The translations under genes and the position numbers were made by a program. 22,806 nucleotides of DNA from a virus. Positions within the stretch are counted from its first letter, which is position 1. Each line of letters starts with the position of its first letter. Shown piece by piece: positions 4,015-20,336 of the stretch. The DNA is taken from the IMG/VR virus record IMGVR_UViG_3300033985_000077, positions 1 to 22,806 of that record, one strand, 5' to 3'. The notes under the pieces were generated by a model. It made no database searches and was not told where the DNA came from. It saw only the letters and a list, made by a program, of their open reading frames with translations.

Positions 4015-4180
4015 TTATAAGGGGAAGAAAATTGTAGGGAGAGACAATATGGAGGGGCTACGGCAATCCCTACGTTCTGATTCCCGTTCTTCTTCGTTTC
4101 CCCGTTTATGTAGGTATTGTAGTCCCCGTAGGTATCTATTGAAAATATTGTCCGTCTTGTTTATTTTTCCCGGCTTATAA
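4015..4180 (-). repeat. 166-bp TTATAA-bounded element, copy A
   Basis: This element is bounded by TTATAA at both ends (4015-4020 and 4175-4180), with imperfect inverted ends of the form TTATAAG followed by a G/A-rich run. Positions 4054-4153 are identical over 100 bases to the reverse complement of 20198-20297. The outer parts have diverged. It lies in a gene-free stretch upstream of the leftward structural promoter. Short open frames across it lack ribosome sites and are not called as genes. It could be a MITE-like mobile element, a shared enhancer or operator, an origin, or a structured RNA. Confidence 0.8.
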
Positions 4181-4206
4181 AAAAAGGAATTACAAGTGCC
4201 GGGAGT

Positions 4207-4221
4207 GCCCGTCCCACGGGC
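4207..4221 (-). other. Small perfect hairpin
   Basis: GCCCGT and ACGGGC pair perfectly around a three-base loop. Read leftward, a T-rich run (4181-4187 in reverse) follows about 20 bases later. This could assist termination or structure the leader of the transcript from the promoter at 4337-4365. Confidence 0.4.
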
Positions 4222-4246
4222 GTCGAAACGTTCTGACATATATAAC

Positions 4247-4274
4247 AACGAGGCCCCTACGCGGGGCCTACGTT
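4247..4274 (-). terminator. Strong hairpin, possible terminator of the replication transcript
   Basis: AGGCCCC (4251-4257) and GGGGCCT (4263-4269) pair around a five-base loop, extended by AACG/CGTT with one bulged base. It lies beyond the last leftward gene of the replication block. The following bases in leftward direction (GTTGTTATATATG) are only moderately T-rich, so intrinsic termination is likely but not certain. Together with 3900-4361 it forms a gene-free control region. Confidence 0.5.
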
Positions 4275-4336
4275 ATCTACGGCCTGTATGGAATTGGAGG
4301 AATAGAAAGGCGGGTTCCTGAACGGGTGGCAACTCT

Positions 4337-4365
4337 TCTATATCACAGCCCGGTGCTGGTGTCAA
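4337..4365 (-). promoter_or_regulatory. Leftward sigma70-type promoter
   Basis: On the minus strand TTGACA (4360-4365) and TATAGA (4337-4342) are separated by 17 bases, close to consensus. It overlaps the last codons of the 105-aa gene and points into the gene-free region holding the hairpins and element copy A. Its transcript would have a leader of over 400 bases before the zinc-finger gene, or would be a non-coding RNA. Confidence 0.55.
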
Positions 4366-4679
4366 TCCCCCCATATCAGGTCATCAATCATCCAATTCAG
4401 GTCCCGGTTCGCAACACAAGGCTTGCTTAAGCGTTGCATGGTTTTAATTCCCCACCCGACAAAATTTGCAACGACCACGATCTGAATCACAGGATGCCCC
4501 TTATATGTCGTTAATTCGCAAATGTGGACTGTGATATCTACTTCGCCGTCCTCGGATCTGATTGTGTGGCAACTTGGGGTGTCGTCCTGTGATTCAACTA
4601 AATAATACCCTGAGCTTTCAACTTCCAAACCCAGATAGGGCACCCCATCCTTTTCCTTGGTGACCAAGCTGACTACCAT
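4362..4679 (-). CDS. Hypothetical protein (105 aa)
   Basis: I do not recognise this protein. It reads MVVSLVTKEKDGVPYLGLEV and has alternating beta-type segments (EVDITVHICEL, HPVIQIVVVANFVG), ending in an acidic-aromatic tail LNWMIDDLIWGD. There is no signal peptide or clear membrane span. It is the last leftward gene of the replication block, about 75 bases after the clamp-like gene. The ribosome site (AGGT) is weak. Codon use and direction fit its neighbours, so it is probably real. Confidence 0.65.
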   Translation of the reverse strand: MVVSLVTKEKDGVPYLGLEVESSGYYLVESQDDTPSCHTIRSEDGEVDITVHICELTTYKGHPVIQIVVVANFVGWGIKTMQRLSKPCVANRDLNWMIDDLIWGD

Positions 4680-4753
4680 AATATACCTACTTTGGTTGAA
4701 TTTCTGAGTTTCCAGGGGCTATTCTAGCCGTTCTGTCAGACTTACTTCCTGCT

Positions 4754-5392
4754 TTAGTCGTGGACCCAGGAAGGGGGGGATGTCGGGGTTACAATGGCGT
4801 GCGGGTGCAGCGGCATGATTACCCCGACAAAGTTCTCGTCCGCCAGGTTTATCAATGCGCCATCGTTGCCGTTGAATCCGATGCCAACACAGTGCGGGCC
4901 CTTGCCGCCGTGCAAGATTGACCATGCTTTCGCCAGGGTGGCGATAAGGCGGAGGTCAAACTGAGCAGGCTGGCCCGACACTTTTGACGGAATCACACGC
5001 CGAAAATCGGGGAACTCGCCGTCCAGGGTTTTGCCGCTTATGGACAAACCCGCGTAGGTAAGCGTCACCGGGCGGGCGTTGGACGGCACCTTTTTGCCCC
5101 CCTGCTCCTTGAGCTCCCGTTCTCCGATGGTGATTTCCACCAGGCCGGTTGACTTGATCGGCTTGAGCAGATCGTTGGGGATGATGATGTTCGTCAGCGG
5201 TGCGTCAACGTCCGGTTGCTCGCTCTCGACGCGGAAGCATCCGAGCATCGCGCCATTGGAGGCCACTAGGCGGGTTTCCTTGCGGCCGATTTCCAAAATG
5301 ACGCCGTTCAGGCAGTGGCGCACGTCCTTGTCGGCAGCGAACAGCTTGAGCACGGCAATGTAACTGGCTGGGACGGTCAGTTTGATTTCCAT
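4754..5392 (-). CDS. Sliding-clamp-like protein (DnaN family, short)
   Basis: This 212-aa protein resembles the beta clamp that tethers DNA polymerase to DNA. Supporting segments are RLVASNGAMLGCFRVE (residues about 40-55), PNDLLKPIKSTGLVEITIGE, and SISGKTLDGEFPDFRRVIP at about 118-136. The last matches the (L/V)(D/E)G-x-(F/Y)PD(F/Y)RRVIP signature of clamp domains. The C-terminal FVGVIMPLHP is the usual last strand. Bacterial clamps are about 370 aa with three domains, so this one has roughly two and would need to form a higher oligomer. AAGGAG precedes the ATG at 5392. Which polymerase it serves is not shown by the sequence. Confidence 0.7.
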   Translation of the reverse strand: MEIKLTVPASYIAVLKLFAADKDVRHCLNGVILEIGRKETRLVASNGAMLGCFRVESEQPDVDAPLTNIIIPNDLLKPIKSTGLVEITIGERELKEQGGKKVPSNARPVTLTYAGLSISGKTLDGEFPDFRRVIPSKVSGQPAQFDLRLIATLAKAWSILHGGKGPHCVGIGFNGNDGALINLADENFVGVIMPLHPHAIVTPTSPPSWVHD

Positions 5393-5446
5393 GGTGGTTT
5401 CTCCTTTATCTGTTTTCGGGGTATTCAAAACAGCTCAGGTTGGCGG

Positions 5447-5800
5447 TCAGTCATTGCCCCGGCAATCCTTGAGTCGATACACAGTTTCGTTCCAGTACCC
5501 GCCGCCCAGAGTCGCCCAAGCGTTGCCTATCCCGCGCACCGGCTCCTCGGTGATCTGATAGCCAAGTGCCCGCGCCTTACGGACCACCTCGTTCCAAGCG
5601 CGGTATACGTGCATCGTCGGGTCAGTCCCGCCGCACGTCGAGCGGCAGCCGACAGTCACCTCGCCTTTCTTCAGCAACTGCACAAAGAGATCCCGGATAT
5701 GCGTCCTGTCGTATGGTCTATATTTGCTGATGCGCTTATCCCGTGTCGCGATGTAGGTTTCAAGCTTCGGATGGATGACATTCTTGCGGTCATTGCTCAT
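5447..5800 (-). CDS. Hypothetical protein (117 aa)
   Basis: I do not recognise this basic protein. It begins MSNDRKNVIHPKLETYIATR and has a helical middle (THIRDLFVQLLKKGEVTVG) and a Gly/Trp-rich end (GIGNAWATLGGGYWNETVYR). One Cys pair (GCRSTCGG) is present, too little for a zinc site. The ATG at 5800 is preferred because AGGAG lies just upstream; the reading frame opens further left of that start without a ribosome site. It overlaps the preceding 58-aa gene by 11 bases. Function unknown. Confidence 0.65.
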   Translation of the reverse strand: MSNDRKNVIHPKLETYIATRDKRISKYRPYDRTHIRDLFVQLLKKGEVTVGCRSTCGGTDPTMHVYRAWNEVVRKARALGYQITEEPVRGIGNAWATLGGGYWNETVYRLKDCRGND

Positions 5801-5966
5801 TGTCTTTCTCCTGTTTGCATCGCTCAGTGCGCTTTGGCGGAATGCTGCCGTCATAAATCAGCTTCTCGTTAGTTAGCCTGCATAGCGACAGCACAGGCCC
5901 GTCCATGTAGTACGGGCAGCGGTATGAACACCTTTCGTTGCTCAAGGGTATGGGTTTAGGCGTCAT
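5790..5966 (-). CDS. Small Cys-rich protein (58 aa)
   Basis: This small frame starts MTPKPIPLSNERCSYRCPYY and carries four cysteines at residues 13, 17, 29 and 50 (CxxxC, then spaced Cys), a possible small zinc or metal site. A purine-rich ribosome site (GGAGAAGGGGGAGTG) lies directly before the ATG. The stop overlaps the next gene start by 11 bases, and its own start overlaps the end of the 54-aa gene upstream. Tight overlap on both sides argues that it is translated. Function unknown. Confidence 0.6.
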   Translation of the reverse strand: MTPKPIPLSNERCSYRCPYYMDGPVLSLCRLTNEKLIYDGSIPPKRTERCKQEKDNEQ

Positions 5967-6120
5967 CACTCCCCCTTCTCCTGTTTAAGCGCGGCGTCAT
6001 GTAACGGCCAGTAGCAGGGCTGAACGAGGCGCCGATGATGTTGGCACCCTGCGCCTCCAGCTCGTCAGCGAGTTGGGCCATCTGGTATAGTATGTTGGCA
6101 GTTGATTTGGCGTCAGTCAT
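5956..6120 (-). CDS. Small protein (54 aa)
   Basis: The protein reads MTDAKSTANILYQMAQLADE and continues ELEAQGANIIGASFSPATGR, ending in a basic tail RLNRRRGSDDA. A GGAGGG site sits seven bases before the ATG. It begins three bases after the stop of the 211-aa gene and overlaps the next gene by 11 bases, as expected in this compact operon. The N-terminal helix is amphipathic. No domain is recognised. Confidence 0.6.
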   Translation of the reverse strand: MTDAKSTANILYQMAQLADELEAQGANIIGASFSPATGRYMTPRLNRRRGSDDA

Positions 6121-6123
6121 GAC

Positions 6124-6759
6124 TTAGCCCTCCTGTCCTGTGTCGCGTGCGATTTCTAGGGTGTCGATACCCGCTCTGGCCATTGCGCCACGGAGCTTGT
6201 TGCCAAGATTCATACGCTGCATGCCGGGGTTTAGGTGACCGTATTTGGCCCGGAGCTTGTCGACGGTATCCAGTGTTTCCAGATCCTTGGCGTCAGTGGC
6301 GGTCTCATTGATTGCGCGGATGTATCTGGCCACAGTGCCATAGGCGTCGTCGAGGTTCAATCCGCGCAGGATTCCAGCCACATAGTCGTTGATATCGATC
6401 ACGGTCTTGCCGGACTGAGTGGTGATCCCAGTGTGGCGGGTGTATCTGCTCCAATCGGGGCGGATGCGGACACGCTGGGTTTCCTCCAATTCGGGTTCTT
6501 CAATCTCTTCCATTTCGACCTCCTCAGGCTCGTTGTTCATCGCCTTCTCAAATGCCTCACGGGTCAGCTTGTAGGCGCGGTTCTTGGGGATGACAAATCC
6601 TCCAGTGATGCCCAGGCCTCCGGCCACCTTGTCAATGATCCGGCCAATGCGCCATTCGCCGGTGTCGGAATCGGGACCCTGCACGTAATCGCCCTTTCTC
6701 TGGCGGATAGCGGGGGCCAGGGTGTCGATGGCGGGGGTGGTGATGATCTGGGTCTTCAT
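6124..6759 (-). CDS. Hypothetical phage protein with acidic linker (211 aa)
   Basis: I do not recognise a family. The N-terminal part contains a compact basic/aromatic segment (RQRKGDYVQGPDSDTGEWRI) and a Gly-rich strand region up to about residue 60. A strongly acidic linker (NNEPEEVEMEEIEEPELEE) follows near 76-94. The C-terminal half is helical (GKTVIDINDYVAGILRGLNL, VARYIRAINETATDAKDLE). The C-terminal end, LRAKYGHLNPGMQRMNLGNK, resembles a basic DNA-facing helix, so DNA binding is possible but unproven. The ATG at 6759 follows AAGGAG in a leader shared with two other genes. It is preceded by its own promoter at 6806-6836. Confidence 0.7.
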   Translation of the reverse strand: MKTQIITTPAIDTLAPAIRQRKGDYVQGPDSDTGEWRIGRIIDKVAGGLGITGGFVIPKNRAYKLTREAFEKAMNNEPEEVEMEEIEEPELEETQRVRIRPDWSRYTRHTGITTQSGKTVIDINDYVAGILRGLNLDDAYGTVARYIRAINETATDAKDLETLDTVDKLRAKYGHLNPGMQRMNLGNKLRGAMARAGIDTLEIARDTGQEG

Positions 6760-6805
6760 GGTGTCTATCTCCTTTATGGGGTTATCTCTCAATCTCGTTA
6801 ACTTT

Positions 6806-6836
6806 GTTATAACACGGGAAACCCATTGTTGTCAAT
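6806..6836 (-). promoter_or_regulatory. Leftward promoter with ATTG-N4-CAAT site over the -35 box
   Basis: On the minus strand TTGACA (6830-6835) and TATAAC (6806-6811) are separated by 18 bases. The -35 box lies in the inverted repeat ATTG-N4-CAAT (6825-6836), and GGGTTTCC fills the spacer. The same arrangement recurs at 7782-7812 and 16349-16379 and in weaker form at 11696-11725, suggesting a shared regulator. It should drive the 211-aa gene. Confidence 0.7.
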
Positions 6837-6872
6837 TATTCCCGTTAATAAGCCCGCACATCGGCATTTGAT

Positions 6873-7010
6873 TCATACCAACCCCCAAAGGACACAAAAT
6901 ATGAAATATACAACAGCAATCCCGGCCAAGGCCAGGGCTATCACCAGTGTTGCGCAGGTCAAAGCAACCAAAGCAACCAAAGCGTCAATAATCAAAGGGG
7001 AAGTATTCAT
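6873..7010 (-). CDS. Small membrane protein (about 45 aa)
   Basis: From MNTSPLIIDALVALVALTCA the protein continues into an unbroken hydrophobic segment (TLVIALALAGIAVVYFIFCV), giving one long or two short membrane spans and almost no soluble part. ACAGG lies seven bases before the ATG at 7010, the last of three ATGs in a row. The first 26 bases overlap a different frame encoding a 31-aa acidic protein. Possible roles are a membrane anchor or superinfection-type protein, but nothing identifies it. A longer frame from 7073 has a basic lead-in and is less likely. Confidence 0.45.
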   Translation of the reverse strand: MNTSPLIIDALVALVALTCATLVIALALAGIAVVYFIFCVLWGLV

Positions 7011-7080
7011 CATCATACCTGTCCCCAGCCTCTTGTTCCTCTGCTTCAGCAATCCATTCTTTAAATTCTTCATCTGTCAC
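6985..7080 (-). CDS. Small acidic protein (31 aa), tentative
   Basis: A GTG start opens a short frame reading MTDEEFKEWIAEAEEQEAGD and ending RYDDEYFPFDY. The composition is very acidic and looks like a real amphipathic helix rather than noise, while the overlapping frame from 7073 is basic. The AAAAGAG before the GTG is too close to be an ideal ribosome site. It overlaps the start of the small membrane protein by 26 bases. Gene status is uncertain. Confidence 0.4.
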   Translation of the reverse strand: MTDEEFKEWIAEAEEQEAGDRYDDEYFPFDY

Positions 7081-7120
7081 CTCTTTTCATATGGACAACC
7101 AGAATAACACATTATGCCTC

Positions 7121-7441
7121 CTACCAATAGCCAATGCTTACATTGTTCAGGGCCTTGCGGCCACATAACATCTTCTTTTTGTTGTGATCATAGGACATTA
7201 TAGCCCCGCGCCGGGATATAAACCCCTGATAATTGTATCCGATGGGGTAAGGTTTATCCGTACTGCAGACCTCAATGATCACTTCAGTGGTGCTCAAATT
7301 TTCCATTTGGTTTACTTCCAGCCGGGTTAATTCCCACTCTTTGCCTGATCCGATCCGGGCAAATCTCAATGTGCTGAGTATACATGCCTCGATCTTGCGG
7401 GTCTGAATGGGAGTCAGGTTCATTTCGGCGGTGGTCTTCAT
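7121..7441 (-). CDS. Hypothetical protein (106 aa)
   Basis: The protein begins MKTTAEMNLTPIQTRKIEAC, a helical start, then shows beta-type segments (WELTRLEVNQMENLSTTEVI, YPIGYNYQGFISRRGAIMSY) and a basic end. No domain is recognised. Its leader (AAGGAG, then GACACC before ATGAAGAC) is nearly identical to those of the genes starting at 6759 and 7737, so the 5' ends look duplicated or co-regulated. A GAAA-loop hairpin lies just upstream. Function unknown. Confidence 0.65.
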   Translation of the reverse strand: MKTTAEMNLTPIQTRKIEACILSTLRFARIGSGKEWELTRLEVNQMENLSTTEVIIEVCSTDKPYPIGYNYQGFISRRGAIMSYDHNKKKMLCGRKALNNVSIGYW

Positions 7442-7468
7442 GGTGTCTATCTCCTTTATGCTTTATGG

Positions 7469-7484
7469 GGGGCCTTTCGGCCCC
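7469..7484 (-). terminator. GAAA-loop hairpin between small genes
   Basis: On the minus-strand RNA, GGGGCC and GGCCCC pair perfectly around a GAAA tetraloop. No T-run follows; instead the ribosome site of the 106-aa gene comes next. It could be a weak terminator, an attenuator or an mRNA-stabilising stem. A longer stem of similar sequence occurs at 15062-15085. Confidence 0.45.
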
Positions 7485-7515
7485 GTGGGTTATTGATCAA
7501 TCTCTTCGCTTCCCT

Positions 7516-7737: not shown

Positions 7738-7781
7738 GGTGTTACTCCTTTATGGGGTTATCTCTCAATCTCGTTAACTTT

Positions 7782-7812
7782 GTTATAATATAGGAAGCCC
7801 ATTGTTGTCAAT
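7782..7812 (-). promoter_or_regulatory. Leftward promoter with ATTG-N4-CAAT site, second copy
   Basis: TTGACA (7806-7811) and TATAAC (7782-7787) are 18 bases apart on the minus strand, with the same ATTG-N4-CAAT repeat (7801-7812) over the -35 box. The region from here to the start of the 73-aa gene is a near copy of 6760-6836, so promoter and leader were probably duplicated together. Confidence 0.7.
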
Positions 7813-8237
7813 TATTCAAGTAAAATTTGGTTTAACCTCGTTGTCCATTGATCTTTGGTCAGGCCCCGGCTGGTCAGAATATGACAGGCCCCTGGGCCGT
7901 CAACTGGAATACCAATCTTCAAGGCCCGACCTTGGTGATGCCGGTACAAGAATTCATCACCCCCAAACAAAACAAGAATATAAACCTTTCCAGCCAAGTC
8001 CCCCCGGGTTTTTAGCCAGTTGGCTTGGACTGGTGTCATGGTCGGGGTGCATAACCTATCACCCTTTACGTGTCCAATTTTTAATTCTATCCAACCATGA
8101 CCAGACGGGCAGGAATAGGACAAATCCGGGATACCCCCGCTGGTGGTCCCGGATTCGATTCTGTTGTACAATATGTTTTCCATGGCGTCCAGAGCCGGTT
8201 TGACTCTGGTACGCCAATATCTGGTTTCGGGCTTCAT
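7812..8237 (-). CDS. VRR-NUC-type nuclease
   Basis: This 141-aa protein has the PD-(D/E)xK nuclease core of the VRR-NUC family: SGGIPDLSY with D38, then GWIELKIG with E51 and K53. The TPTMTPVQANWLKTRG segment near 64-79 holds the Gln and aromatic residues typical of the next helix. Stand-alone VRR-NUC proteins are phage structure-specific DNA nucleases, probably used on branched replication or recombination intermediates. The start overlaps the datZ stop by four bases (ATGA), so it is the last member of the coupled purZ string. The family call is firm; the substrate is inferred. Confidence 0.85.
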   Translation of the reverse strand: MKPETRYWRTRVKPALDAMENILYNRIESGTTSGGIPDLSYSCPSGHGWIELKIGHVKGDRLCTPTMTPVQANWLKTRGDLAGKVYILVLFGGDEFLYRHHQGRALKIGIPVDGPGACHILTSRGLTKDQWTTRLNQILLE

Positions 8238-8788
8238 GGCATCAGGTTGTCGATGTATGTTTGTTCACCATGGATATATTCAAGCAAGCAGGAATAACTC
8301 CTGTTCCAATCATACTCCGGCAAAGCATGAGACAGTTGGGCGATGAAGGTGGACATATTATTGCTCAGTTTTTCTCGGATTACTTTTGACTGATCATTGA
8401 TGCCCTCCTCGTGCAGGAATTTTACGGCATCGATATAATCAGCCAACTTGACCACGGCACTAGCTAATGCGGATAGGCCCGATGCGAATGACCACCTGCC
8501 CGGATCAATTCTGGCTTCAAGCTCGTCGAATTTGTCCCTTGCAATATTCTTTATTTGGGATACCGGGTCACCCATAACCACCTCAGGCAAATCGTGTACC
8601 AGAGCCCATAGGATGGCTTCATGGGTTTCCTTCTCGGGGATACCGATTCTCTCGCACAAATCCAAGACCAGCATGCACACCAAATACGAATGCTCGGCCA
8701 CGGTTTGTTGTCTTGGGGTGTTAAGAATGTGCCAACGCTTGACGAATTGGGTCCGGTATATGTCGGATAACTTCAAAGATGTGATCAT
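8234..8788 (-). CDS. datZ: HD-domain dATP triphosphohydrolase, DatZ-type
   Basis: This 184-aa protein is in the YfbR/DatZ branch of the HD superfamily. Metal and catalytic residues visible are H20 in KRWH, H33 in AEHSY, H65-D66 in LVHDLPEV with E69, and D117 in VKLADYID. DatZ hydrolyses dATP to deoxyadenosine and triphosphate, emptying the pool of the base that Z replaces. YfbR itself is a 5'-deoxynucleotidase of the same fold, so sequence alone does not settle the substrate. The presence of PurZ and MazZ in the same overlapping string makes DatZ the best call. The start overlaps the methyltransferase stop (ATGA). Confidence 0.85.
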   Translation of the reverse strand: MITSLKLSDIYRTQFVKRWHILNTPRQQTVAEHSYLVCMLVLDLCERIGIPEKETHEAILWALVHDLPEVVMGDPVSQIKNIARDKFDELEARIDPGRWSFASGLSALASAVVKLADYIDAVKFLHEEGINDQSKVIREKLSNNMSTFIAQLSHALPEYDWNRSYSCLLEYIHGEQTYIDNLMP

Positions 8789-9501
8789 ATCTGGCTCCGA
8801 TGCATAAAAATTGATTCACAAGTTCCATCTTTTGGCTTCCCCGCATAGTGTCCAACCACGGTGTTGCCAAAGTTAAAAACCCTAACCCAATCATCCGGGG
8901 CATCGAACTCGGTTAAAAATACCTGGTTACCCTCGGCCACCAACCCCCTGGCGTATTCCCAGAAAGTTTGATGGTCGAAACTCACACCATAAGCATTTGT
9001 TCTCCCGTTATACGGGGGGTCGAGGTATATTGTGGCCCCGATTGGTTTTACATCCAAATAATCACAACAAACTAACTTAAATTTTGATTTTAGCAGCATG
9101 CTCGCTTTTAGCAGCGTGCTTCTTTTGGCGATAATGGCAAAATTGCAGCCGGTACTATTCCTAGCATAACCCCCCCACCACTTGCCCCCAAAGGACATAC
9201 CAAATCCGCAATACGCCGTCATTGGGTCTTCCGGGTTGCGGGTGTTTTTATAGTACTGGTATGTTTCTTCTGTTATAACATCAGGCGGAACCCACCCCCC
9301 AATGACGGCTCTCCACATGTTAATCAAGGGCTCGTTCAAATCGCTTAGTTGGATAAAACCTTTGAGATGAGGCACAATCCTTGAAGCCACCCCCATAGCC
9401 CCGCAGAAGGGTTCATAATATGGTGTTTCCGGGTCAACCCTTTTCAATATGAAATCGGCTATTTTTGGCCCCTGCCGATATTTACCGCCCATATAATTCA
9501 T
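8785..9501 (-). CDS. D12-class N6-adenine DNA methyltransferase (Dam-like)
   Basis: This 238-aa protein begins MNYMGGKYRQGPKIADFIL and shows the AdoMet-binding motif I YYEPFCGAMGVAS at residues 28-40, then the catalytic DPPY at 161-164 (IYLDPPYNGRTN). Motif order FxGxxG before DPPY is that of the alpha (D12, Dam-like) class, which methylates the exocyclic N6 of adenine. The region between the motifs, rich in Gly/Trp/Tyr (CGFGMSFGGKWWGGYARN), would hold target recognition. It overlaps mazZ and datZ by four bases each. In a genome where A is replaced by Z, its substrate is unclear: N6 is also present on 2-aminoadenine. It may act on Z, on residual A, or on host DNA. Confidence 0.9.
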   Translation of the reverse strand: MNYMGGKYRQGPKIADFILKRVDPETPYYEPFCGAMGVASRIVPHLKGFIQLSDLNEPLINMWRAVIGGWVPPDVITEETYQYYKNTRNPEDPMTAYCGFGMSFGGKWWGGYARNSTGCNFAIIAKRSTLLKASMLLKSKFKLVCCDYLDVKPIGATIYLDPPYNGRTNAYGVSFDHQTFWEYARGLVAEGNQVFLTEFDAPDDWVRVFNFGNTVVGHYAGKPKDGTCESIFMHRSQI

Positions 9502-11687: not shown

Positions 11688-13615
11688 GTGCCCTCCTCAT
11701 AACATACGACACCCATTGATGTCAAGTAATCTTTGGAATGTGACCAACCCTTACCCGTTATTTTTTCGGCTTGTGTGGCCTCCCACCAATTTTTACCGGG
11801 TATAGAAAAATCAATCCTAAGTGGGATCCTTAATTCGGGTCGGTCCTCGATAAGATATTTGATTCTTTCCAAGTGTTTTTTTGCATTGTCACAAGACAGA
11901 CTGATTGAATATTCATCGTGAATCGAAAGCAGCAGCCGACCCCCGCTCTCCGCCTCCAAGTATTCACATATCCGGCAGATGTTTTCTTTGTTGAGATCCG
12001 CACTTGAACCCTGATATATCAAACCAGATGCCTTGTGTGTGAATTTCCCACCGGGAAAGCGAATATGCCGACCTTTCAAGGTGCGAACATAACCCCGGGA
12101 CTTAGCCACGGCGGAAGCGTTTTTTGCCATCTCCTTGACACCAGGAACAGCATCATAGTACTTGGCCATGACAGCGAGGGTTTCCTCCCCCGGCTTCAAA
12201 ATCTCCCGCTCTTCAGTGTCGTCCTTAAATTTGACTTTTTCGATGGTAAAGGGGAGGCCCATCTTTTCAGCTAATCTCCCTCCGCCCATATTAAATACCA
12301 TGGCAAGGTTGATTTGCTTGGCGTTCGCCTGTCCGGATCTGGTGGCGTTCCGGGGCAAGCCGGTCATATCTGCCACAACCTGGTGAATGTCGAGATCAGG
12401 ATTTTCCCGATAAGCTTGATTCAGGGAAGGTGCATTGACATAATGTGCAAAGATACGGAATTCATGCTGGTCTAGGTCCCCGTACGCCCAACCCTGGCCA
12501 TCATCAGGTAAAAATATCGGACGCACCAGCGAGGCGATCTCCTTATCCCTGCTGGGTATTTGCTGGAGAGCCGGATTGGAATATGAAAGCCTTCCCGTAC
12601 CAGTGCCCTCAACCCCGCCGCTGCTTTCGGACTTGGTTTGGTTGATGTTGGGGTGTACCCTACCATTGTGGGTGTGTTCAATCACGTGCTTGGCCAGAAA
12701 TGTGTCCCGGGTCTTCATGTACTTGCGGCATCTTAAGATTAACTTGGCCGCAGGATGTGTCATAGCCAGAAGCTGGTCTGCTCCTATGGATGGTTGATCT
12801 CCACTGGTGGCCGGGAGAGGTGTACCGTCACATGCTATCCATACACCATCTTTATTCTTCTTCGGGTTGAACAGTTTTTTGATTGACCCAGATGGGTTTG
12901 GGTTCACATGAAACCCGGCCACCTTATCCAATTCTTTCTGGATTTGGTCAATCTTGACAGTCAATTTATCTATGGTTTTGTGGGCCAAATCCACATCAAC
13001 TCTTATACCACGCCTTTCCATGTCAAAAATAAAAGGAAAAAGCCTCATCTCAAGGGCGTGAACCTGTTGTAGACACTGCCTTTTTATTTCCTTTTGCTGC
13101 CACATCCACAATTCCATGGCAACCCTGCTGTCCATCTTGGCGTATTCTTCAACCACGCTTTTTGGTGCCCTGCTGATATTTTTCATCTGGGCGGTACGTG
13201 TTGGTTGCCCACCAAATAATCCGGCCAACTTTTCATATATGGTTGAATCTTTTCGTTTACCGATATATTTTTGGGCCAGTGAATCAAGATCGTATTTGAA
13301 CAAATGTTCATCAATCAAAGCGGCATTGATCATAGTGCACTCAACCCGCCGGGGGTCAATCACAATGCCCTCATTTAGGAGCATGTGCATATCAAATTTG
13401 ACATTGTGATTGACAACCTTGTTTATTTTGGGGGCTTGGTCCCTGAGCCATGCAAAAAGGCCCTCATCCACCCGGCTGTCGAAATAATAATCCCGGATCT
13501 CACCCCCATCAAAGGTAGACACTGCAACACCAAAAACCTTGTCTCTGTACCACTCCACACCTGTGGTTTCTACGTCTATTGAAACCACTTCATATCTGTC
13601 TAGATTCGGGTACAT
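11684..13615 (-). CDS. Family A DNA polymerase with 3'-5' exonuclease, DpoZ candidate
   Basis: This 643-aa polymerase is Klenow-like, with no 5'-3' exonuclease domain. Exonuclease motifs are SIDVETTG (D14, E16), NHNVKFDMHML and YAKMDSRVA. Polymerase motif A is YGDLDQHEFRIFAHY, motif B spans RSGQANAKQINLAMVFNMGG, and motif C is LSIHDEYSI. In the O helix the usual NFGxxYG is changed to NLAMVFN, so the Phe, Tyr and Gly positions that shape the nucleotide site are Leu, Phe and Asn. Known Z phages of the phiVC8 type use a family A polymerase (DpoZ) that prefers dZTP; the neighbouring purZ cluster makes that likely here. ATG at 13615 has GAGGTG upstream; a GTG two codons earlier is possible. Confidence 0.9.
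   Translation of the reverse strand: MYPNLDRYEVVSIDVETTGVEWYRDKVFGVAVSTFDGGEIRDYYFDSRVDEGLFAWLRDQAPKINKVVNHNVKFDMHMLLNEGIVIDPRRVECTMINAALIDEHLFKYDLDSLAQKYIGKRKDSTIYEKLAGLFGGQPTRTAQMKNISRAPKSVVEEYAKMDSRVAMELWMWQQKEIKRQCLQQVHALEMRLFPFIFDMERRGIRVDVDLAHKTIDKLTVKIDQIQKELDKVAGFHVNPNPSGSIKKLFNPKKNKDGVWIACDGTPLPATSGDQPSIGADQLLAMTHPAAKLILRCRKYMKTRDTFLAKHVIEHTHNGRVHPNINQTKSESSGGVEGTGTGRLSYSNPALQQIPSRDKEIASLVRPIFLPDDGQGWAYGDLDQHEFRIFAHYVNAPSLNQAYRENPDLDIHQVVADMTGLPRNATRSGQANAKQINLAMVFNMGGGRLAEKMGLPFTIEKVKFKDDTEEREILKPGEETLAVMAKYYDAVPGVKEMAKNASAVAKSRGYVRTLKGRHIRFPGGKFTHKASGLIYQGSSADLNKENICRICEYLEAESGGRLLLSIHDEYSISLSCDNAKKHLERIKYLIEDRPELRIPLRIDFSIPGKNWWEATQAEKITGKGWSHSKDYLTSMGVVCYEEGT
11696..11725 (-). 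promoter_or_regulatory. Possible internal promoter before the zinc ribbon, ssb and purZ string
   Basis: TTGACA (11720-11725) and TATGAG (11696-11701) are 18 bases apart on the minus strand, inside the last codons of the polymerase gene. The -35 is followed by TCAATGGG, matching the promoter family at 6806, 7782 and 16349 (TTG-N4-CAA is kept). The -10 is weak, and a start here would fall almost at the zinc-ribbon ATG, so it would chiefly serve ssb and the purZ string. Confidence 0.4.
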
Positions 13616-13617
13616 AT

Positions 13618-15045
13618 TCACCTCAACATGGGGAGAGGGTTATCATCAAAGACAATATCCAGGGTATGTTTAGCCCGGGTCACGCCAACATAGAAAACCC
13701 GGATTTCCCCATCCGGGTTGTTGTGTAAGGCCTCGGCACTCCGGGCATTCATGGCATTTATCAGGATAACCCTTTCAGCTTCCCGGCCCTTACTACCATG
13801 AATCGATGACAGGTGAATTGTGGGTCTGACATTCAGACCATACCGGGTTTCAACCTCAGCCAAGTAATTGATATCAGCATACCTACCCACGGCGATATCT
13901 GTCCAGTGTTTTTTGTTTAAGAATGAAAAATCATCAGCATCGATTTCCCGGGACTGCCCCGGAAACACTCTTTTCATGGCCCTGCGCTCGGCCTCTGTTG
14001 CCATGCTGCAGTGCATTGCGTTGAAATTCTTCCCACAGGCCACCAAAGCTTTTACGGCCCTGGCCAGATAAGATTGCATCACCCCAGGTTTTCCGGAGTC
14101 AGTGATGTATGGTGTGTTCGACTCAATCAATTTTTGCTCGATGTCATTCCTCAAAGAATGGTTACGGTACAAAATCAAGACGTCCTCACCGTGCGTGATC
14201 GGGTTTAGATTCCACACTGTGTCAAATTTCCGGACCCGTCCGCTTTCCGTTCTTGGTTTGTATATCTTTTCCTGTCGTTTGGATATTTGGTTTATGAGAT
14301 CGGTTGCCAGTGTATGTACGCTGGCTGGGATTCTATACGACTGATCCAAGATTTTGATTCCAGAGGCATACCTTTCAGCGAATTTGTTCATACCGGCGGG
14401 GTCGGCACCCCCAAACACATATATGGACTGGTCATCATCTCCAGCCACAAACACTCTTTTCATATTTGCTGCCCAAGATTCGACCAACTTCCACTGCAGG
14501 GGTGATAAATCTTGGGCCTCATCAATAAAGAGGTTTTCATAATTAATCGTGGTCCCGTATGCCAACTCCAACATATCTGTGAAGTCCACCAGACCGTAGG
14601 CCTTCTTAAATTCTTCATACTTCTGAACAAAAAATCTGAATTCTTCCGGGGATCCGTCCCGGACGGTATGATCATAGGTTTCGCCAAGTTCGCTGCGCAG
14701 TTTGTTTCTATGCATTGAATACAAAGCTAGATAAAAATCGCCAATCTGGGGTAATTCACCTTCTTCCGGATTTGAGCCCGTAATTTCAAACCCGGTCAAA
14801 CTGGCGAACTTCTTGAAATCGTCGCGACCGATGACCTGGTCCTTTGTAATCCCGGCACTCCGGAAGGCCAGGCTGTGGATGGTGGAAATATCAAAATCCA
14901 TACCCTTGCATCTGGAGGTCATTTCCGCCGCTGCCGCCCGGGTGAATGACACAAAACAAGATTTGCCCTTGGTGCTTTTCATAATATCGATCAAGGTGGT
15001 TGATTTGCCACAGCCGGGAGGCCCAAATATTACGGTGCTTTCCAT
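13618..15045 (-). CDS. UvrD/Rep-type superfamily 1 DNA helicase
   Basis: This 475-aa protein is a short UvrD-like helicase. Motif I is GPPGCGKST (residues 8-16), motif II is FIDEAQDLSP, motif III is VAGDDDQSIYVFGG, motif V includes LSSIHGSKGREAERVIL and motif VI is VFYVGVTRAKHTLD. It should unwind DNA 3'-5' during replication or repair. Cellular UvrD/Rep proteins are about 670-720 aa; the inserted 1B/2B domains look shortened here. AGAGG lies upstream of the ATG, after a perfect hairpin in the intergenic gap. Its stop lies just before the polymerase ATG, placing the two in one transcript. Confidence 0.9.
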   Translation of the reverse strand: MESTVIFGPPGCGKSTTLIDIMKSTKGKSCFVSFTRAAAAEMTSRCKGMDFDISTIHSLAFRSAGITKDQVIGRDDFKKFASLTGFEITGSNPEEGELPQIGDFYLALYSMHRNKLRSELGETYDHTVRDGSPEEFRFFVQKYEEFKKAYGLVDFTDMLELAYGTTINYENLFIDEAQDLSPLQWKLVESWAANMKRVFVAGDDDQSIYVFGGADPAGMNKFAERYASGIKILDQSYRIPASVHTLATDLINQISKRQEKIYKPRTESGRVRKFDTVWNLNPITHGEDVLILYRNHSLRNDIEQKLIESNTPYITDSGKPGVMQSYLARAVKALVACGKNFNAMHCSMATEAERRAMKRVFPGQSREIDADDFSFLNKKHWTDIAVGRYADINYLAEVETRYGLNVRPTIHLSSIHGSKGREAERVILINAMNARSAEALHNNPDGEIRVFYVGVTRAKHTLDIVFDDNPLPMLR

Positions 15046-15061
15046 CGTTATCCTCTCTTAT

Positions 15062-15085
15062 AATGGGGGCCGAAAGGCCCCCATT
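15062..15085 (-). terminator. 10-bp perfect stem between replication genes
   Basis: AATGGGGGCC (15062-15071) pairs completely with GGCCCCCATT (15076-15085) around a four-base loop, in the gap between the 243-aa gene and the uvrD-type gene. No T-run follows in leftward direction, and the downstream genes appear to belong to the same block. It is therefore more likely an attenuator, RNA-processing site or stabilising stem than a full terminator. Confidence 0.5.
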
Positions 15086-15090
15086 GTGAC

Positions 15091-15822
15091 TTAGAATTCC
15101 GGGCCTTCTTCGGTGTCGGTGTCCATGCCGTCATAACTGCGGTCGGCAGTCGCCGCGCCGGCCATAATAAGTTTATACACTCCCTCGGCCTTCCTGTATG
15201 TGGGTTCATCCACATACCCCAGATTTATAACCTTAAAAGTGTAAAACTCCTGGCCATTCTTGTTTTCGGTCAGCACACCGGTCAGCTTGTACCGGCGGGA
15301 GAATCTGTCGCCGCCATTGATACGGACCAAAGAATTGAAAATCTTGGATACCTTGAGTTTCGATTTAGCCATCGAGATGACCGCTTCCCCCCATGTGTTT
15401 TCTTCCTTGACCAAGCAGAAATGCTGATGGGTCAACACGGCCTCCCACTCTTCCGGCTTTTCCAGGGTGGCCCTGACTTCCTCAGCTTCTTCCATGGACG
15501 GGAAAGCGCCACCGAATCCGCCGCCGAGCTTCTGATCCCGCCATAGAATGTACTCCCGCTTGAATACCACCGGCACAATCTCAATGCTGGTGCCGTAATT
15601 TTTGCGGGTGACGGAATTGTACAGCATACCCTCTTCGATCCCTTCGATATATTCGGGGGCATTTTTCTTGCGGACCTTGGACAGGCTCTGCACAATCTCG
15701 ATGCGGGGGATGATGAGATCTTCATGCGCTACATCCTCGGAACCCCGGTTGCCTTTCATGTTCCGCAGGAATTCGGGGACGTTGGTGTTGACTTCCATAA
15801 TTTTGTCTTCTTTCTTACTCAT
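15091..15822 (-). CDS. Unknown replication-block protein with acidic tail (243 aa)
   Basis: I do not recognise a named family with certainty. The protein has an N-terminal lead (MSKKEDKIMEVNTNVPEFLR), a central part with HEDLIIPRIEIVQSLSKVRK and GMLYNSVTRKNYGTSIEIVP, a Gly-rich loop (LGGGFGGAFPSMEEAEEVRA), and an OB-like beta region (RRYKLTGVLTENKNGQEFYT). It ends in an acidic tip with a final Phe (DTDTEEGPEF). Acidic tails ending in Phe are seen on phage and bacterial ssDNA-binding proteins such as T7 gp2.5, so a second SSB is a reasonable guess. AAGGAG precedes the ATG. It lies between a 157-aa unknown and the UvrD-type helicase. Confidence 0.7.
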   Translation of the reverse strand: MSKKEDKIMEVNTNVPEFLRNMKGNRGSEDVAHEDLIIPRIEIVQSLSKVRKKNAPEYIEGIEEGMLYNSVTRKNYGTSIEIVPVVFKREYILWRDQKLGGGFGGAFPSMEEAEEVRATLEKPEEWEAVLTHQHFCLVKEENTWGEAVISMAKSKLKVSKIFNSLVRINGGDRFSRRYKLTGVLTENKNGQEFYTFKVINLGYVDEPTYRKAEGVYKLIMAGAATADRSYDGMDTDTEEGPEF

Positions 15823-16321: not shown

Positions 16322-16379
16322 AGTATATATATATATATGTTATGCCTTATTATAGCACGGGAAGCCCATTGCTGTCAAT
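16322..16379 (-). promoter_or_regulatory. Strong leftward promoter with ATTG-N4-CAAT site and TA-repeat leader
   Basis: TTGACA (16373-16378) and a perfect TATAAT (16349-16354) are 18 bases apart on the minus strand. The -35 lies in ATTG-N4-CAAT (16368-16379), and GGGCTTCC fills the spacer, as in the promoters at 6806 and 7782. Downstream, an alternating TA run (about 16324-16338) forms the leader before the 157-aa gene. This is the best promoter in the replication block and probably drives the helicase, polymerase and purZ genes. Confidence 0.75.
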
Positions 16380-16700: not shown

Positions 16701-16762
16701 GTTTTCTCCTTCTTCACTGTTGTCATTTGCGGTCGGGTCGTTACCATCCCGGCCACATCTGT

Positions 16763-16791: not shown

Positions 16792-16798
16792 TGGGTAT

Positions 16799-18559
16799 TT
16801 AGACCATATCCATCACCATGTCCCGGAAAGACGAGGCCTTCGAGGGGATGTCGGACAATCTCTCCTTCACATATGTTGCCAGATCCTTCTTTTCTTTCAA
16901 GGCGGCAAGCACCAACTCTTCAACAGAATCCTTCATAATAACATCCGTGTATGTCACTTTCTGGGTGGTCCCCTTGCGGTGGTTCCGGTCTTCGCTCTGC
17001 GCCCGGTTCCCAAAACTGAAACTGTTGCTGAGGTATATTACATCGGAGCAGTTAGTGAAGGTGAAACCCGTCCCGCCAGCCTCTTGTGTTGACACCATAC
17101 ACCTACTTTGCTTTGATGTGAACAGTTCCAGGGCCTGTGTCCTTTCTCTCTGGTTCATACCACCAAAAATCTTGACGGCACTAATATTTGCTGCTTTAAG
17201 ATTGTCATATGTGGCATGCAACTCTAACAAGTGCCGGGTCCATATATTAAATTGTTTTTTGCCATATTCTGATATCATATCCATCAAGAAAATTTGTTTC
17301 GGATCTTTTGTTGGGTCCGTGATCCGGGTGAAGACCCGATTTTTCTTTTCACCATGGGATATGAAACCAGAGCAAACCTGCTGCAAGGCCAAGTATACTG
17401 CCAATATATTTTCGAGTACGATGGTTGTGGGTCCGCCAACCGCCAACACTTCCGCCAGCCTTTCCTTTTTTAGGCTGTCGTATATTTTCCGCTGTTCTTT
17501 TGTCATGTCCAACCGCACCGGATCCATATACACTTTCGGCGGCAGATCCATCATTTCTTCTTTGGATATCTGAATTGTCCACGGGGAAATGGAGGCTGTC
17601 AGTTCCTCGATATTATCATACCCAATTACCTCTTTGTTTTTATACCCACCCCTGATTGTGTACCGGTTTTTGAATGAGTAATAGTCCCCGATACCTATGA
17701 TGTCCGGGTCCAAGAATTCGTATTGGGAATAGAGGTCAAGAATGGAATTCAATATCATGGTGCCGGTGCCAATATACCGGTATTCAGCCAGTCGCCCCAA
17801 GCTGATCACATTTTTGGTTCTGTTGCTTTCTGGGTTTTTTATCAGATGGGATTCATCCACCACCATGGCGCATCTGTTGGCACTCAAAAACTTCACAAGC
17901 CATTCGAACAGGTGCCCTCCCCCCAGCCTTTGGCTGAGAGACTCGATACCCACAGCCACGAATCTCATATTGCCCGACTTCTTAATCAAAGTGTAGGCCT
18001 TCTTTCTTTTGGCCTCCGTGCTGAGATCCGGCTTGAATACGTCATAAACCTCAAGGGGGGTGTGCTTCCTCACCTCATTTTGGATGTTATCACACAAAGA
18101 AACCTTTGTCATGATCACCATGGCATCTATAATACCCTGCTGAAACATGGCCGACCCAAGATCGGTATATATTTTTGATTTTCCGGTGCCCATCTCCATC
18201 GAGAAGCAAAAAACCTTTTTACCCCAGGCCATATTAAGGGCCTCCATCTGCTTCTGCATTGGCGGCATACCCGGACGAAAAGAATATGACAGGGGGAAGG
18301 GTGTGATTTTTACTTCACTTTTCTTCTGGATGTTTTTTATTAGAGCCTTGGCCTTGTCATCAATAATCATCCTCCCGGCCTGGCTCTCAATATACTCAGC
18401 GTTCATCCTAAACCCGCGCAGGAACCATGCTTTTTTGGATTTCATGAATCTCCGGCTCGGTGCTTTTTGGGCTAAACCATTCAGATGAAAAGGTACGTAA
18501 AGAAGAAAGTTTTCTCCCTTATCATCCGTTGTGACCATTGCTTTAGAATTCGGGTTCAA
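16799..18559 (-). CDS. SNF2-type superfamily 2 helicase
   Basis: This protein of about 586 aa has SNF2-like helicase motifs: motif I MEMGTGKS, motif II VVDESHLIKN (DESH box), motif III YIGTGTMILN, motif V QEAGGTGFTFTNCSDVIYLS and motif VI NRAQSEDRNHRKG. Phage SNF2 proteins are ATP-driven DNA translocases linked to replication or recombination. The start is uncertain. TTG at 18559 has the best ribosome site (GGGGGAG, four bases away). ATG at 18538, just after the primase stop, has none, and TTG at 18589 is a third choice. With the chosen start it overlaps the primase-polymerase gene by 17 bases, suggesting coupling. Confidence 0.9.
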   Translation of the reverse strand: MNPNSKAMVTTDDKGENFLLYVPFHLNGLAQKAPSRRFMKSKKAWFLRGFRMNAEYIESQAGRMIIDDKAKALIKNIQKKSEVKITPFPLSYSFRPGMPPMQKQMEALNMAWGKKVFCFSMEMGTGKSKIYTDLGSAMFQQGIIDAMVIMTKVSLCDNIQNEVRKHTPLEVYDVFKPDLSTEAKRKKAYTLIKKSGNMRFVAVGIESLSQRLGGGHLFEWLVKFLSANRCAMVVDESHLIKNPESNRTKNVISLGRLAEYRYIGTGTMILNSILDLYSQYEFLDPDIIGIGDYYSFKNRYTIRGGYKNKEVIGYDNIEELTASISPWTIQISKEEMMDLPPKVYMDPVRLDMTKEQRKIYDSLKKERLAEVLAVGGPTTIVLENILAVYLALQQVCSGFISHGEKKNRVFTRITDPTKDPKQIFLMDMISEYGKKQFNIWTRHLLELHATYDNLKAANISAVKIFGGMNQRERTQALELFTSKQSRCMVSTQEAGGTGFTFTNCSDVIYLSNSFSFGNRAQSEDRNHRKGTTQKVTYTDVIMKDSVEELVLAALKEKKDLATYVKERLSDIPSKASSFRDMVMDMV

Positions 18560-20096
18560 TTTTCTCCCCCTCCATTTTTGGTTGTTCAATCCTGTCCATC
18601 TCTACCGCCCACACATCCCTGACCACTGACCCGATACGTAAAGAAGTGTGCGTCACCTCGTGCCGCCTGAGTGCAAACCAAAGATTTGGCCCCCGCAATT
18701 CCTCAGCCCGATTTTTCCTCAAATAACTCACAAAATCAGACCCACGGAAATATATCAACTTCTTTCCATTCTTAAGCTGTACCACCGGGATACCACGCAA
18801 CAGCATTTTTCTGTCTTCGGTACTCTCGCCGGTCGATGTCATGTCGGCACGTTGCAGGAATGTTCGCAGGTGGGACCAAATCAGGCCGTGGCTGGAGGCA
18901 TCATCCGGGGCATCAACTAATACTGCTTCATTCATCAAGGTTTGCAGAATGGCCAACCATTTGTCCGCCTTCATGGGGGGAATTATCCGGGTCAATTTCT
19001 CTGCCACTGCCTCCCTGACCTTTTTGTAGTCCATAATATCTTGGGTGGTCAGATTCAATTCAAAGCCACCGTCCATTTCGAGCCCCCACCTGACTGGATC
19101 TGTCAAATACTTCTTCAACCCGGTGAATTTTGGGTGCTCACCCAGATTCATTGTGGTGTGTTCTTCTTTGGTGATACCAAACTTTCTATTAACACAAACA
19201 GAAGAATTACACAGGGATCTGCAAGGTTCCTCCCCGCATTTGTATCTATACGTTCTTCTTCCTACTGAAGTTATTGTCTTTTTTGCTTCACTGTACGGCA
19301 GAGGTGTGCTAAATATCTTGGCGTTCAAATCAAAAGCCTTGTCTTTCCATGTTTCCGGGTAGGCCTGTTTCAAATATATGCAAATATTGTACAGAGCTTC
19401 GTTCCTATACCCGGATGCCACACCATTCGATATCATCGCGCATATGCACGGCGGGGCTCCGTCATGGTTCCCCTCGCTCTTCTCGACCAGAACTTGGGCT
19501 GTGACCCGTCTGGACTCAGCAATCTCGACAAAGTATTCTATTGATATTCTCTTCCCACCCTCAACACACCACCTCAAAGCTCCCTCTGAGTATGCATCAA
19601 AATTACATATGTTGATCCAGTTCCCAAGTTGCTGACCTTCCTTGTCCTTGAGCAACTTATCCTGCTTGGGGAATACCTCCGCCCCGGTGAAGTACAATTC
19701 GCTGGCCCACTTCGCCAACACTTTCCTGACCAGCCTGGCGGGCACGGCCTCAGAACAAAACAAATATAAATGAGCCCCGCCGGATTTTGACCTACAAACC
19801 ATGAGAGGCAGATCCTTTGATCTTACTTCCTTTTCAAGTTCGTATAGGTCAATTTCCTTGGCATCCCCATGACAATCGATATCTATGGCACCCCACCAAC
19901 ATGTGTCATCATCGAGTATTGGTACAAGCCCGATTCCCCTCTTGCCGGAAATGTGATCCTCAAAATCCGTTTTTTCATATTTCGAGTGAAGGGTGTACAT
20001 ATTTTTGCCCGGGGTTTTTTGCCTGGGGTCAAACACACCCTTGCTCCTCTCATTGGAGATAAACAAATTCATAAACCTATCAACTATATCGGCCAT
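18543..20096 (-). CDS. Primase-polymerase (archaeo-eukaryotic primase type)
   Basis: This 517-aa protein has the AEP/PrimPol catalytic set: GAIDIDCHGD with D72 and D74, CRSKSGGAHLYLF with S103 and H109, and GAEVFPKQ with E140. A helical middle follows (GVASGYRNEALYNICIYLKQ, a PriCT-like region). A Cys cluster at C287, C292, C296 and C301 (CGEEPCRSLC, SSVC) probably holds zinc. The C-terminal 200 residues have no clear helicase motif. It would prime or start DNA synthesis. Z phage S-2L also encodes a PrimPol, whereas phiVC8-type phages carry DpoZ; here both a PrimPol and a family A polymerase are present. GAGGAGG precedes the ATG. It is the first leftward gene of the block. Confidence 0.88.
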   Translation of the reverse strand: MADIVDRFMNLFISNERSKGVFDPRQKTPGKNMYTLHSKYEKTDFEDHISGKRGIGLVPILDDDTCWWGAIDIDCHGDAKEIDLYELEKEVRSKDLPLMVCRSKSGGAHLYLFCSEAVPARLVRKVLAKWASELYFTGAEVFPKQDKLLKDKEGQQLGNWINICNFDAYSEGALRWCVEGGKRISIEYFVEIAESRRVTAQVLVEKSEGNHDGAPPCICAMISNGVASGYRNEALYNICIYLKQAYPETWKDKAFDLNAKIFSTPLPYSEAKKTITSVGRRTYRYKCGEEPCRSLCNSSVCVNRKFGITKEEHTTMNLGEHPKFTGLKKYLTDPVRWGLEMDGGFELNLTTQDIMDYKKVREAVAEKLTRIIPPMKADKWLAILQTLMNEAVLVDAPDDASSHGLIWSHLRTFLQRADMTSTGESTEDRKMLLRGIPVVQLKNGKKLIYFRGSDFVSYLRKNRAEELRGPNLWFALRRHEVTHTSLRIGSVVRDVWAVEMDRIEQPKMEGEKIEPEF

Positions 20097-20104
20097 ACGT
20101 CCTC

Positions 20105-20151
20105 CTCTATATTATATAGCCCCTTCTACCACACCGGGCACACCGCGTCAA
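20105..20151 (-). promoter_or_regulatory. Promoter region of the leftward replication block
   Basis: TTGACG (20146-20151) is followed by TAGAAG at 17 bases (20123-20128). A perfect TATAAT (20111-20116) lies nearer the gene but has no -35 at normal distance. TGTGGTA in the spacer also occurs in the rightward promoter at 20360. The true -10 cannot be chosen by eye; an activator-dependent start at TATAAT is possible. Confidence 0.5.
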
Positions 20152-20170
20152 CTAGTGTTGTTCCTTCTTT

Positions 20171-20336
20171 TTATAAGAGGGAGAAGTTGTCCACGGTGGA
20201 CAATATTTTCAATAGATACCTACGGGGACTACAATACCTACATAAACGGGGAAACGAAGAAGAACGGGAATCAGAACGTAGGGATTGCCGTAGCCCCCAC
20301 ACACTGTCTCCCCCTACAATCTCTCCCCTCTTATAA
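20171..20336 (+). repeat. 166-bp TTATAA-bounded element, copy B
   Basis: This is the inverted partner of 4015-4180, of the same 166-bp length with TTATAA at both ends. Positions 20198-20297 are identical to the reverse complement of 4054-4153. A perfect 17-bp palindrome (20187-20203, TTGTCCAC-G-GTGGACAA) lies in its left part and is absent from copy A. It fills most of the 318-base gene-free region between the diverging primase and exonuclease genes. The rightward promoter begins 24 bases beyond it, matching the position of copy A relative to the leftward structural promoter. Confidence 0.8.

Follow-up and report, generated by a model that had tools for sequence, protein, structure and literature searches.

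Paired iteron-and-hairpin elements are probable replication start sites of a PurZ-type phage

Two copies of one element, placed at the two ends of the replication module of IMG/VR virus record IMGVR_UViG_3300033985_000077 (positions 1 to 22,806, the whole stretch analyzed, here called the window), are probably the previously undescribed replication start sites of this virus, as judged from sequence comparison. It appears fairly probable to us that they are cis-acting replication sites, namely, iteron origins, one active beside the primase gene and a paired site at the far end of the module, since the same pair, with its spacing rules kept and its letters changed, is found in relatives carrying 2-aminoadenine genes. 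Origins were among several roles suggested in an earlier note on this DNA, and they best fit a conserved iteron-plus-hairpin anatomy that always lies next to the primase gene and always comes in two copies. A literature search that covered few subscription journals returned no description of these elements.

Two inverted elements bracket the replication module

The virus record that makes up the window (22.8 kb) is classified as linear; such records are often fragments, and no whole genome is therefore available. Its left element (L, 4015-4180) and right element (R, 20171-20336) are both 166 bp long and have TTATAA at either end (4015-4020 and 4175-4180 for L, 20171-20176 and 20331-20336 for R). 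They are inverted relative to each other, their 175-nt arms being 87% complementary with 15,984 nt in between, and 4054-4153 is the exact reverse complement of 20198-20297, this 100-bp tract being the window's only inverted exact match of at least 30 nt. The earlier description of two inverted, TTATAA-ended 166-bp elements was therefore confirmed in all its coordinates, as was the exact 100-bp core in opposite orientation some 16 kb apart. Compared by BLAST with each other, L and R scored 216 bits, while for random 230-bp segments the median was 24.7 and the 95th percentile 48; one random segment scored 222 bits and presumably overlaps an element.

The perfect core between diverged flanks had been taken as a sign of selection or of a recent copy, but homogenization of the iteron-bearing part explains it better. 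Most relatives' within-genome copies share 70 to 80% and each phage has its own iteron letters, so that the 100-bp identity is most simply a recent gene-conversion tract over the iteron part. The flanks do differ in sequence, as had been noted, yet they are not random, since together they make up the arms of an imperfect, element-long hairpin.

The genes of the window are typical of PurZ phages, that is, phages with 2-aminoadenine genes. They comprise terminase, dATP/dGTP pyrophosphohydrolase, HD dATP triphosphohydrolase, PurZ, SSB, PolA, a UvrD-type helicase, proteins like Pam3 gp32, gp33, and gp34, an SNF2-type helicase, and an AEP primase, followed in the opposite direction by a DnaQ-type exonuclease and ThyX; AEP primase, both helicases, and PolA are the replication genes. 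R occupies the divergent region between primase and exonuclease, and L has on one side the terminator-like hairpin that closes the leftward replication operon and on the other the terminase-operon promoters. The neighboring features are as follows.

1626..3364, minus strand: terminase large and small subunits, late block beyond L
3933..3960, minus strand: sigma70-like promoter TTGACA..GATACT in the terminase direction; a 26-bp unit is tandemly duplicated at 3940-3991
4251..4269, minus strand: terminator-like hairpin closing the leftward replication operon
18543..20096, minus strand: AEP primase carrying PriCT-1 and, at its C terminus, a winged-helix-like domain; candidate initiator (phrog_21866, E 2e-164)
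20360..20388, plus strand: weak sigma70-like promoter TTGACC..TATGGT in the exonuclease-thyX direction, of a class about as frequent in shuffles

Promoter-like sites thus adjoin both elements, in line with the outward promoters proposed earlier, but the R-side site is weak and at shuffle level.

Other features of the window were recorded alongside. A promoter-like unit occurs three times upstream of the terminase genes (3340-3370 and 3916-3991), two of the occurrences forming an exact tandem duplication of 26 bp. The leftward replication operon itself contains four occurrences (6769-6848, 7745-7824, 11694-11726, and 16347-16379) of a promoter-like stretch that reads ATTGACAACAATGGGCTTCC...TATAA on the minus strand; two of the four are 80 nt long and 91% alike, and the set probably represents reiterated internal promoters. 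Among the PurZ and dATP-removal genes lies one for a D12-class (N6-adenine) DNA methyltransferase (8785-9501, minus strand), in a phage whose adenine is predicted to be replaced by 2-aminoadenine; the enzyme is also present in relative L003 (65% identity) and was not seen in the other PurZ loci examined. The product of 4754-5428 (minus strand) received conflicting labels, a beta-clamp central domain from Pfam (E 2e-5, below cutoff) and a RusA-like resolvase from PHROG (E 6e-24).

Anatomy of the elements

Read in order, the general anatomy is as follows: outer inverted repeat; hairpin of the form TGTC-N7-GACA; three direct iterons spaced by 8 to 9 bp; center of about 41 bp; two inverted iterons 12 bp apart; and one further direct iteron.

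20165..20342, plus strand: R, the primase-side copy, a full hairpin/iteron element whose position and anatomy match the elements upstream of primase in close relatives
20164..20190, plus strand: R outer inverted repeat, left arm, CTTCTTTTTATAAGAGGGAGAAGTTGT (score reached in 0/200 shuffles)
20316..20344, minus strand: R outer inverted repeat, right arm, pairing with the left arm
20188..20202, no strand assigned: TGTC-N7-GACA hairpin, TGTCCACGGTGGACA, the window's only such motif, degenerate in the L copy
20198..20297, plus strand: R 100-bp core, holding iterons 1 to 5, identical to the reverse complement of 4054-4153
20219..20224, plus strand: R iteron 1, CCTACG
20228..20233, plus strand: R iteron 2, ACTACA
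20237..20242, plus strand: R iteron 3, CCTACA
20277..20282, minus strand: R iteron 4, inverted, CCTACG
20289..20294, minus strand: R iteron 5, inverted, GCTACG
20313..20318, plus strand: R iteron 6, CCTACA
4009..4186, minus strand: L, the late-side copy, counterpart of the second copies in G001, SH-Ab 15497, 53, Barton, PMBT28, Kokobel2, K21lambda1, PSA28, and VLCpiS6a
4054..4153, minus strand: L 100-bp core, identical to the R core
4109..4132, minus strand: L iterons 1 to 3, gaps 9 and 9
4057..4074, plus strand: L iterons 4 and 5, inverted relative to 1 to 3, gap 12
4033..4038, minus strand: L iteron 6

The six iterons of a window element, beside the primase gene, form a short-repeat cluster in cis next to replication genes. 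Six NCTACR sites within a segment of element length were found in the window only at L and R; the iterons themselves are short and weak, their top 6-mer count being matched by 39 of 1,000 random segment pairs. The T/A tracts that flank the elements belong to the inverted repeat.

The pair recurs in relatives of the phage

The earlier note had proposed a similarity search for copies of the core, and this search yielded none: no close DNA copy of the element was present in 50,697 phage and 72,556 plasmid records, nor was there a further copy of an exact 33-mer in IMG/VR. Related elements were traced via the primase gene and not by direct DNA similarity. The relatives with long records were eight named phages (SH-Ab 15497, 53, Barton, PMBT28, K21lambda1, PSA28, VLCpiS6a, and Kokobel2) and IMG/VR contig G001. 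All nine carried two elements, one just upstream of the AEP-primase gene and the other 14 to 25 kb away at the far end of the replication module; IMG/VR contigs being fragments, the count of two applies to the records seen. In the eight named phages, which are cultured and whose primases are 53 to 56% identical to that of the window, an intergenic element precedes the primase gene, and one second copy lies 21 to 25 kb away. In relative L003 (64% primase identity), a homologous element immediately precedes the primase gene and a second one lies 14 kb away on the same contig in the same orientation. Phage JeffCo has the primase-side element, which in Barton lies at about 20.6-20.8 kb. Several of the named phages are closely related, which lowers the number of independent lineages; these are, roughly, the window with L003, the Acinetobacter phages (Barton/JeffCo apart), the enterobacterial phages, Kokobel2, L099/L102, and an intermediate clade.

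The similarity between the two copies of one genome was strong in the Acinetobacter phages (97.8 to 113 bits by self-BLAST in SH-Ab and 53) and modest in the enterobacterial phages and Kokobel2 (40 to 55 bits, matched by 7 to 9 of 200 random segments), for which the case therefore rests on layout and not on overall similarity. In the intermediate clade (about 41% primase identity), contigs G006, G009, G012, G013, G014, and G016 have two GTTCCNNNGTTCC clusters 20 to 22 kb apart, this iteron word giving 56 matches over 13 records versus 2 for the reversed control pattern. Upstream of distant marine primases (30 to 33% identity), the eight loci examined showed no enrichment of iterons or repeats, the stretch being in several cases the end of a coding gene, and no relative of PurZ, gp32, or gp33 was found in the stretch examined.

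The orientation of the copies varied. They are direct in PMBT28, Kokobel2, K21lambda1, PSA28, VLCpiS6a, and G001, and the second copy is inverted in the Acinetobacter phages and the window. Relative to the primase gene, the element is flipped in window R and in L004 compared with L003, SH-Ab, PMBT28, and Kokobel2. Such tolerance fits an origin or a symmetric binding site better than a promoter, a leader RNA, or an inversion site. Half-genome spacing of the copies was rejected as a rule, the distance being 45 to 51% in complete phages but about 37% in the intermediate-clade contigs, with the contig taken as the whole genome.

Layout is conserved while the iteron letters change

Layouts were compared after orienting each element by its TGTC-N7-GACA hairpin. 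Both window copies have three direct, two inverted, and one direct iteron (>>> << >) of sequence NCTACR with gaps of 9, 9, 40, 12, and 24 bp. The same order is found in copy 1 of PMBT28, K21lambda1, and VLCpiS6a, where the iteron is GGAACG and the gaps are 8, 8, 41, 12, and 23, and copy 1 of Kokobel2 has GGAACC with gaps of 9, 8, 42, 12, and 23. Second copies of the enterobacterial phages and Kokobel2 keep the 8, 8, and 12 with a center of 86 to 87 bp. The Acinetobacter phages have >>> < >> or a close arrangement of GCAACC/RAACC, with one inverted iteron and not two; L099 and L102 use TATCAC, and L004 and L101 fit the layout in part. Order and spacing hence recur closely or with variants, while the letters change from CTAC to GGAACG, GGAACC, GCAACC, and TATCAC.

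If iterons were placed at random in 100 bp, the probability that the five gaps all agree to within 1 bp would be 3e-6, or about 1e-7 when orientation is included; as this calculation ignores common descent, it speaks for conservation of the layout and not for independent origin. For SH-Ab, 53, Barton, PMBT28, K21lambda1, and PSA28, none of 1,000 random pairs drawn from the genome in question reached the top 6-mer count of the element pair; for Kokobel2 and VLCpiS6a, 1 of 1,000 did.

In nearly all primase-side copies, the TGTC-N7-GACA motif precedes iteron 1 by about 28 to 37 bp; it is rare elsewhere, with one site in the window and two in SH-Ab, both at elements. In the late-side copy it is lost in the window and G001 and kept in the other phages tested except 53. 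Outer inverted repeats beat nearly all shuffles in most primase-side copies. The 16 bp after the hairpin are 88% AT in the window, and AT content is not above that of the genome in Kokobel2 copy 1, 53, L099, and L102, so that no AT-rich melting region conserved across the elements was found.

Two further occurrences of the motif were noted. Contig JAHRWG010000370.1 of a Cycloclasticus MAG (L183), probably a phage contig binned with its host, has at about 8410-8530 a TGTC-N7-GACA hairpin and GGGATC-like repeats upstream of a 53%-identical primase. Phage phiVC8 (L182), a Z phage without the primase family found in the window, has an intergenic TGTC-N7-GACA palindrome, TGTCGACCGTCGACA, at 37165-37179, about the number expected by chance; no iterons were seen around it.

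Folding of the elements

Folded over its full length, each element gives an imperfect hairpin. The minus strand of R reached -62.5 kcal/mol (z -4.7), the other folds having z values of -2.2 to -2.5 (-2.3 for L). The arms of L retain 29 of the 34 arm pairs of R, where an equal number of random changes would leave 22.8 ± 2.1 (17/5000 trials), and RNAalifold on the window pair and the two L003 copies predicted 34 pairs, 9 with two-sided change; with four sequences in the alignment, these counts are modest evidence. A sliding 180-nt scan of folding energy across the window did not single out the elements. The strongest-folding 180-nt stretch in that scan was 14981-15160, which holds a terminator-like hairpin, GGGGGCC...GGCCCCC (about 15065-15085), between two replication genes.

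Weighing the alternatives

Like the origins of the SPP1 type, the elements are paired sites with shared repeats in one genome. They sit at operon boundaries beside promoter-like sites, a placement that does not separate origins from operators because operators would show it equally. Nor did the cumulative GC skew suggested earlier for locating origins help: the minimum in the window, near 20 kb, is at R but tracks the direction of the genes, and no consistent GC-skew extreme was found at the elements of complete relatives. AT-skew extremes lie near elements in SH-Ab, Barton, and PMBT28 and are confounded with module boundaries.

The enhancers or operators of the earlier note are rated below origins. 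A phage regulator could bind the iterons at both operon boundaries and coordinate replication-module and late promoters; the elements do lie 20 to 30 bp from promoter-like sites and mark the boundaries of the early and late blocks, and iteron arrays can be operators. However, their orientation to the flanking genes is not conserved, with window R and L004 flipped and second copies direct or inverted, and a simple operator needs no near genome-unique hairpin, central hairpin, or outer inverted repeat, which makes shared transcriptional control an unlikely account of the pair. An operator role, alone or added to another function as autoregulation, is possible. A site for packaging (pac) or for partition/segregation close to the terminase genes, its second copy having arisen by duplication, is less likely still: the late-side copy is near these genes in the window, SH-Ab, and Barton, but it is 2 to 4 kb from them in PMBT28, K21lambda1, and Kokobel2, the invariant copy is the primase-side one, and no partition gene was present among the window open reading frames scanned.

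That each element is transcribed into a structured RNA, a riboswitch or a noncoding RNA, would agree with whole-element hairpins folding better than shuffles (z -2.2 to -4.7). The search for RNA structure proposed earlier nonetheless gave no Rfam match and, beyond that, only the four-sequence RNAalifold prediction; moreover, folding is seen on both strands, the elements have no conserved orientation to promoters, and iterons and hairpins are also explained as DNA sites, so that we consider this reading very improbable. Terminal inverted repeats, TTATAA ends, and two inverted copies had also suggested a MITE-like mobile element or sites for inverting the 16-kb block, which we judge the least probable reading of all. 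The MITE reading is not supported, given the equivalent positions of the two copies in phages that have diverged to about 52 to 65% primase identity and have different sequences there, the lack of further copies in the collections searched, and the absence of a transposase or recombinase from the window open reading frames tested. An inversion switch is likewise unsupported, as the copies are direct in six relatives.

A candidate initiator and a possible mechanism

The primase is a plausible iteron binder through its predicted C-terminal winged-helix-like domain. An AlphaFold2 model of the protein had a mean pLDDT of 82 and a pTM of 0.45, the latter leaving the domain arrangement uncertain. 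The modeled AEP domain matched the CAPP prim-pol (Z 20.6), the S-2L PrimPol (Z 10.2), and RSF1010 RepB' (Z 8.0), and the modeled C terminus (about residues 395-509) best matched winged helices, among them the one in the TcpK-oriT complex (Z 8.1) and one from an ORC subunit (Z 6.1); a winged-helix Z score of about 8 can arise from common arrangement alone. The primases of SH-Ab and 53 are 97% identical and their iterons differ at one position, and protein divergence among SH-Ab, 53, and Barton singled out no candidate binder. The SNF2-type protein or another phage protein could bind the iterons instead. The gp33-like protein, with a high-confidence model lacking a PDB match, and the gp34-like protein, lacking a PDB sequence match, were rejected as initiators. 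Plasmid relatives of the primase match its AEP domain only, and thus no plasmid origin can be used as evidence.

If the elements are origins, a phage initiator, most likely the primase via its winged-helix-like domain, would bind the short iterons and fold or bend the palindromic element, which would then open. The TGTC-N7-GACA and central hairpins would be exposed as single strands, on which the AEP domain would lay primers for the phage PolA polymerase. The late-side copy may be a second origin; alternatively, where its hairpin has decayed (window and G001), it may be an initiator-bound site at which forks stall, promoting a switch to concatemer replication, as proposed for SPP1 oriR.

Comparison with known systems

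By analogy, SPP1 would be the closest functional precedent; for the combination of an AEP primase with hairpins, the nearest would be pRN1 and RSF1010. In Bacillus phage SPP1, about 13 kb separate two origins that carry direct repeats, and the stalling of forks at oriR has been proposed as the concatemer switch (PMC6316719). Its oriL/oriR pair resembles that of the window in comprising two sites with shared short direct repeats, one of them at a replication gene, the 13 kb applying to the circularized map and no homology being implied. SPP1 differs in its AT-rich unwinding element, G38P/G39P/G40P, and DnaB-type helicase, while the window has an AEP primase, a large palindrome plus hairpin, no conserved AT-rich stretch, and the gene set of PurZ-type phages.

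In the plasmids, RSF1010 combines iterons with ssi hairpins, and pRN1 an AEP protein with a 100-nt stem-loop origin (PMC4234260). The RSF1010 oriV (RepC/RepA/RepB', ssiA/ssiB) shares with the window iterons next to hairpins and an AEP-fold primase, RepB' matching the modeled N-terminal domain structurally; unlike the window, it is a single origin with separate initiator and helicase, and it lacks the two copies, the short iterons spaced by 8 to 9 bp, and the outer inverted repeat. The origin-size stem-loop of pRN1 lies next to the AEP prim-pol ORF904, which has a C-terminal winged helix, and its structure is kept while the sequence diverges (PMC4234260). Unlike the window, pRN1 lacks iterons, its stem-loop is present once and lies downstream of the gene, and its primase is fused to an SF3 helicase. 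The ori/crr of satellite phage P4 likewise consists of two distant cis regions with short iterons. In P4 alpha, compared by description and not by sequence, a winged helix of the primase protein binds iterons, as suggested here for the candidate. P4 alpha differs in being a TOPRIM-type primase fused to a helicase (PMC4234260).

Implications for 2-aminoadenine phages

As pointed out in PMC8342488, Z:T pairs are more stable than A:T pairs, and an origin usually requires AT-rich DNA that melts readily. We tentatively suggest, as a possibility that we still hold to be doubtful, that the pairs represent a distinct class of phage origins in 2-aminoadenine (Z) phages, in which a self-contained AEP-primase/winged-helix initiator reads a fixed layout whose letters are rewritten in each phage, a primase-recognized hairpin in place of AT-rich melting opens the extra-stable Z:T DNA, and the partner serves in some lineages as a fork-arrest site. 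For replication start in 2-aminoadenine phages, the elements offer short, concrete, and testable candidate origins in cultured phages, among them SH-Ab 15497, whose 2-aminoadenine genes have been characterized, and their naturally swapped iterons provide a set for working out the specificity of the initiator.
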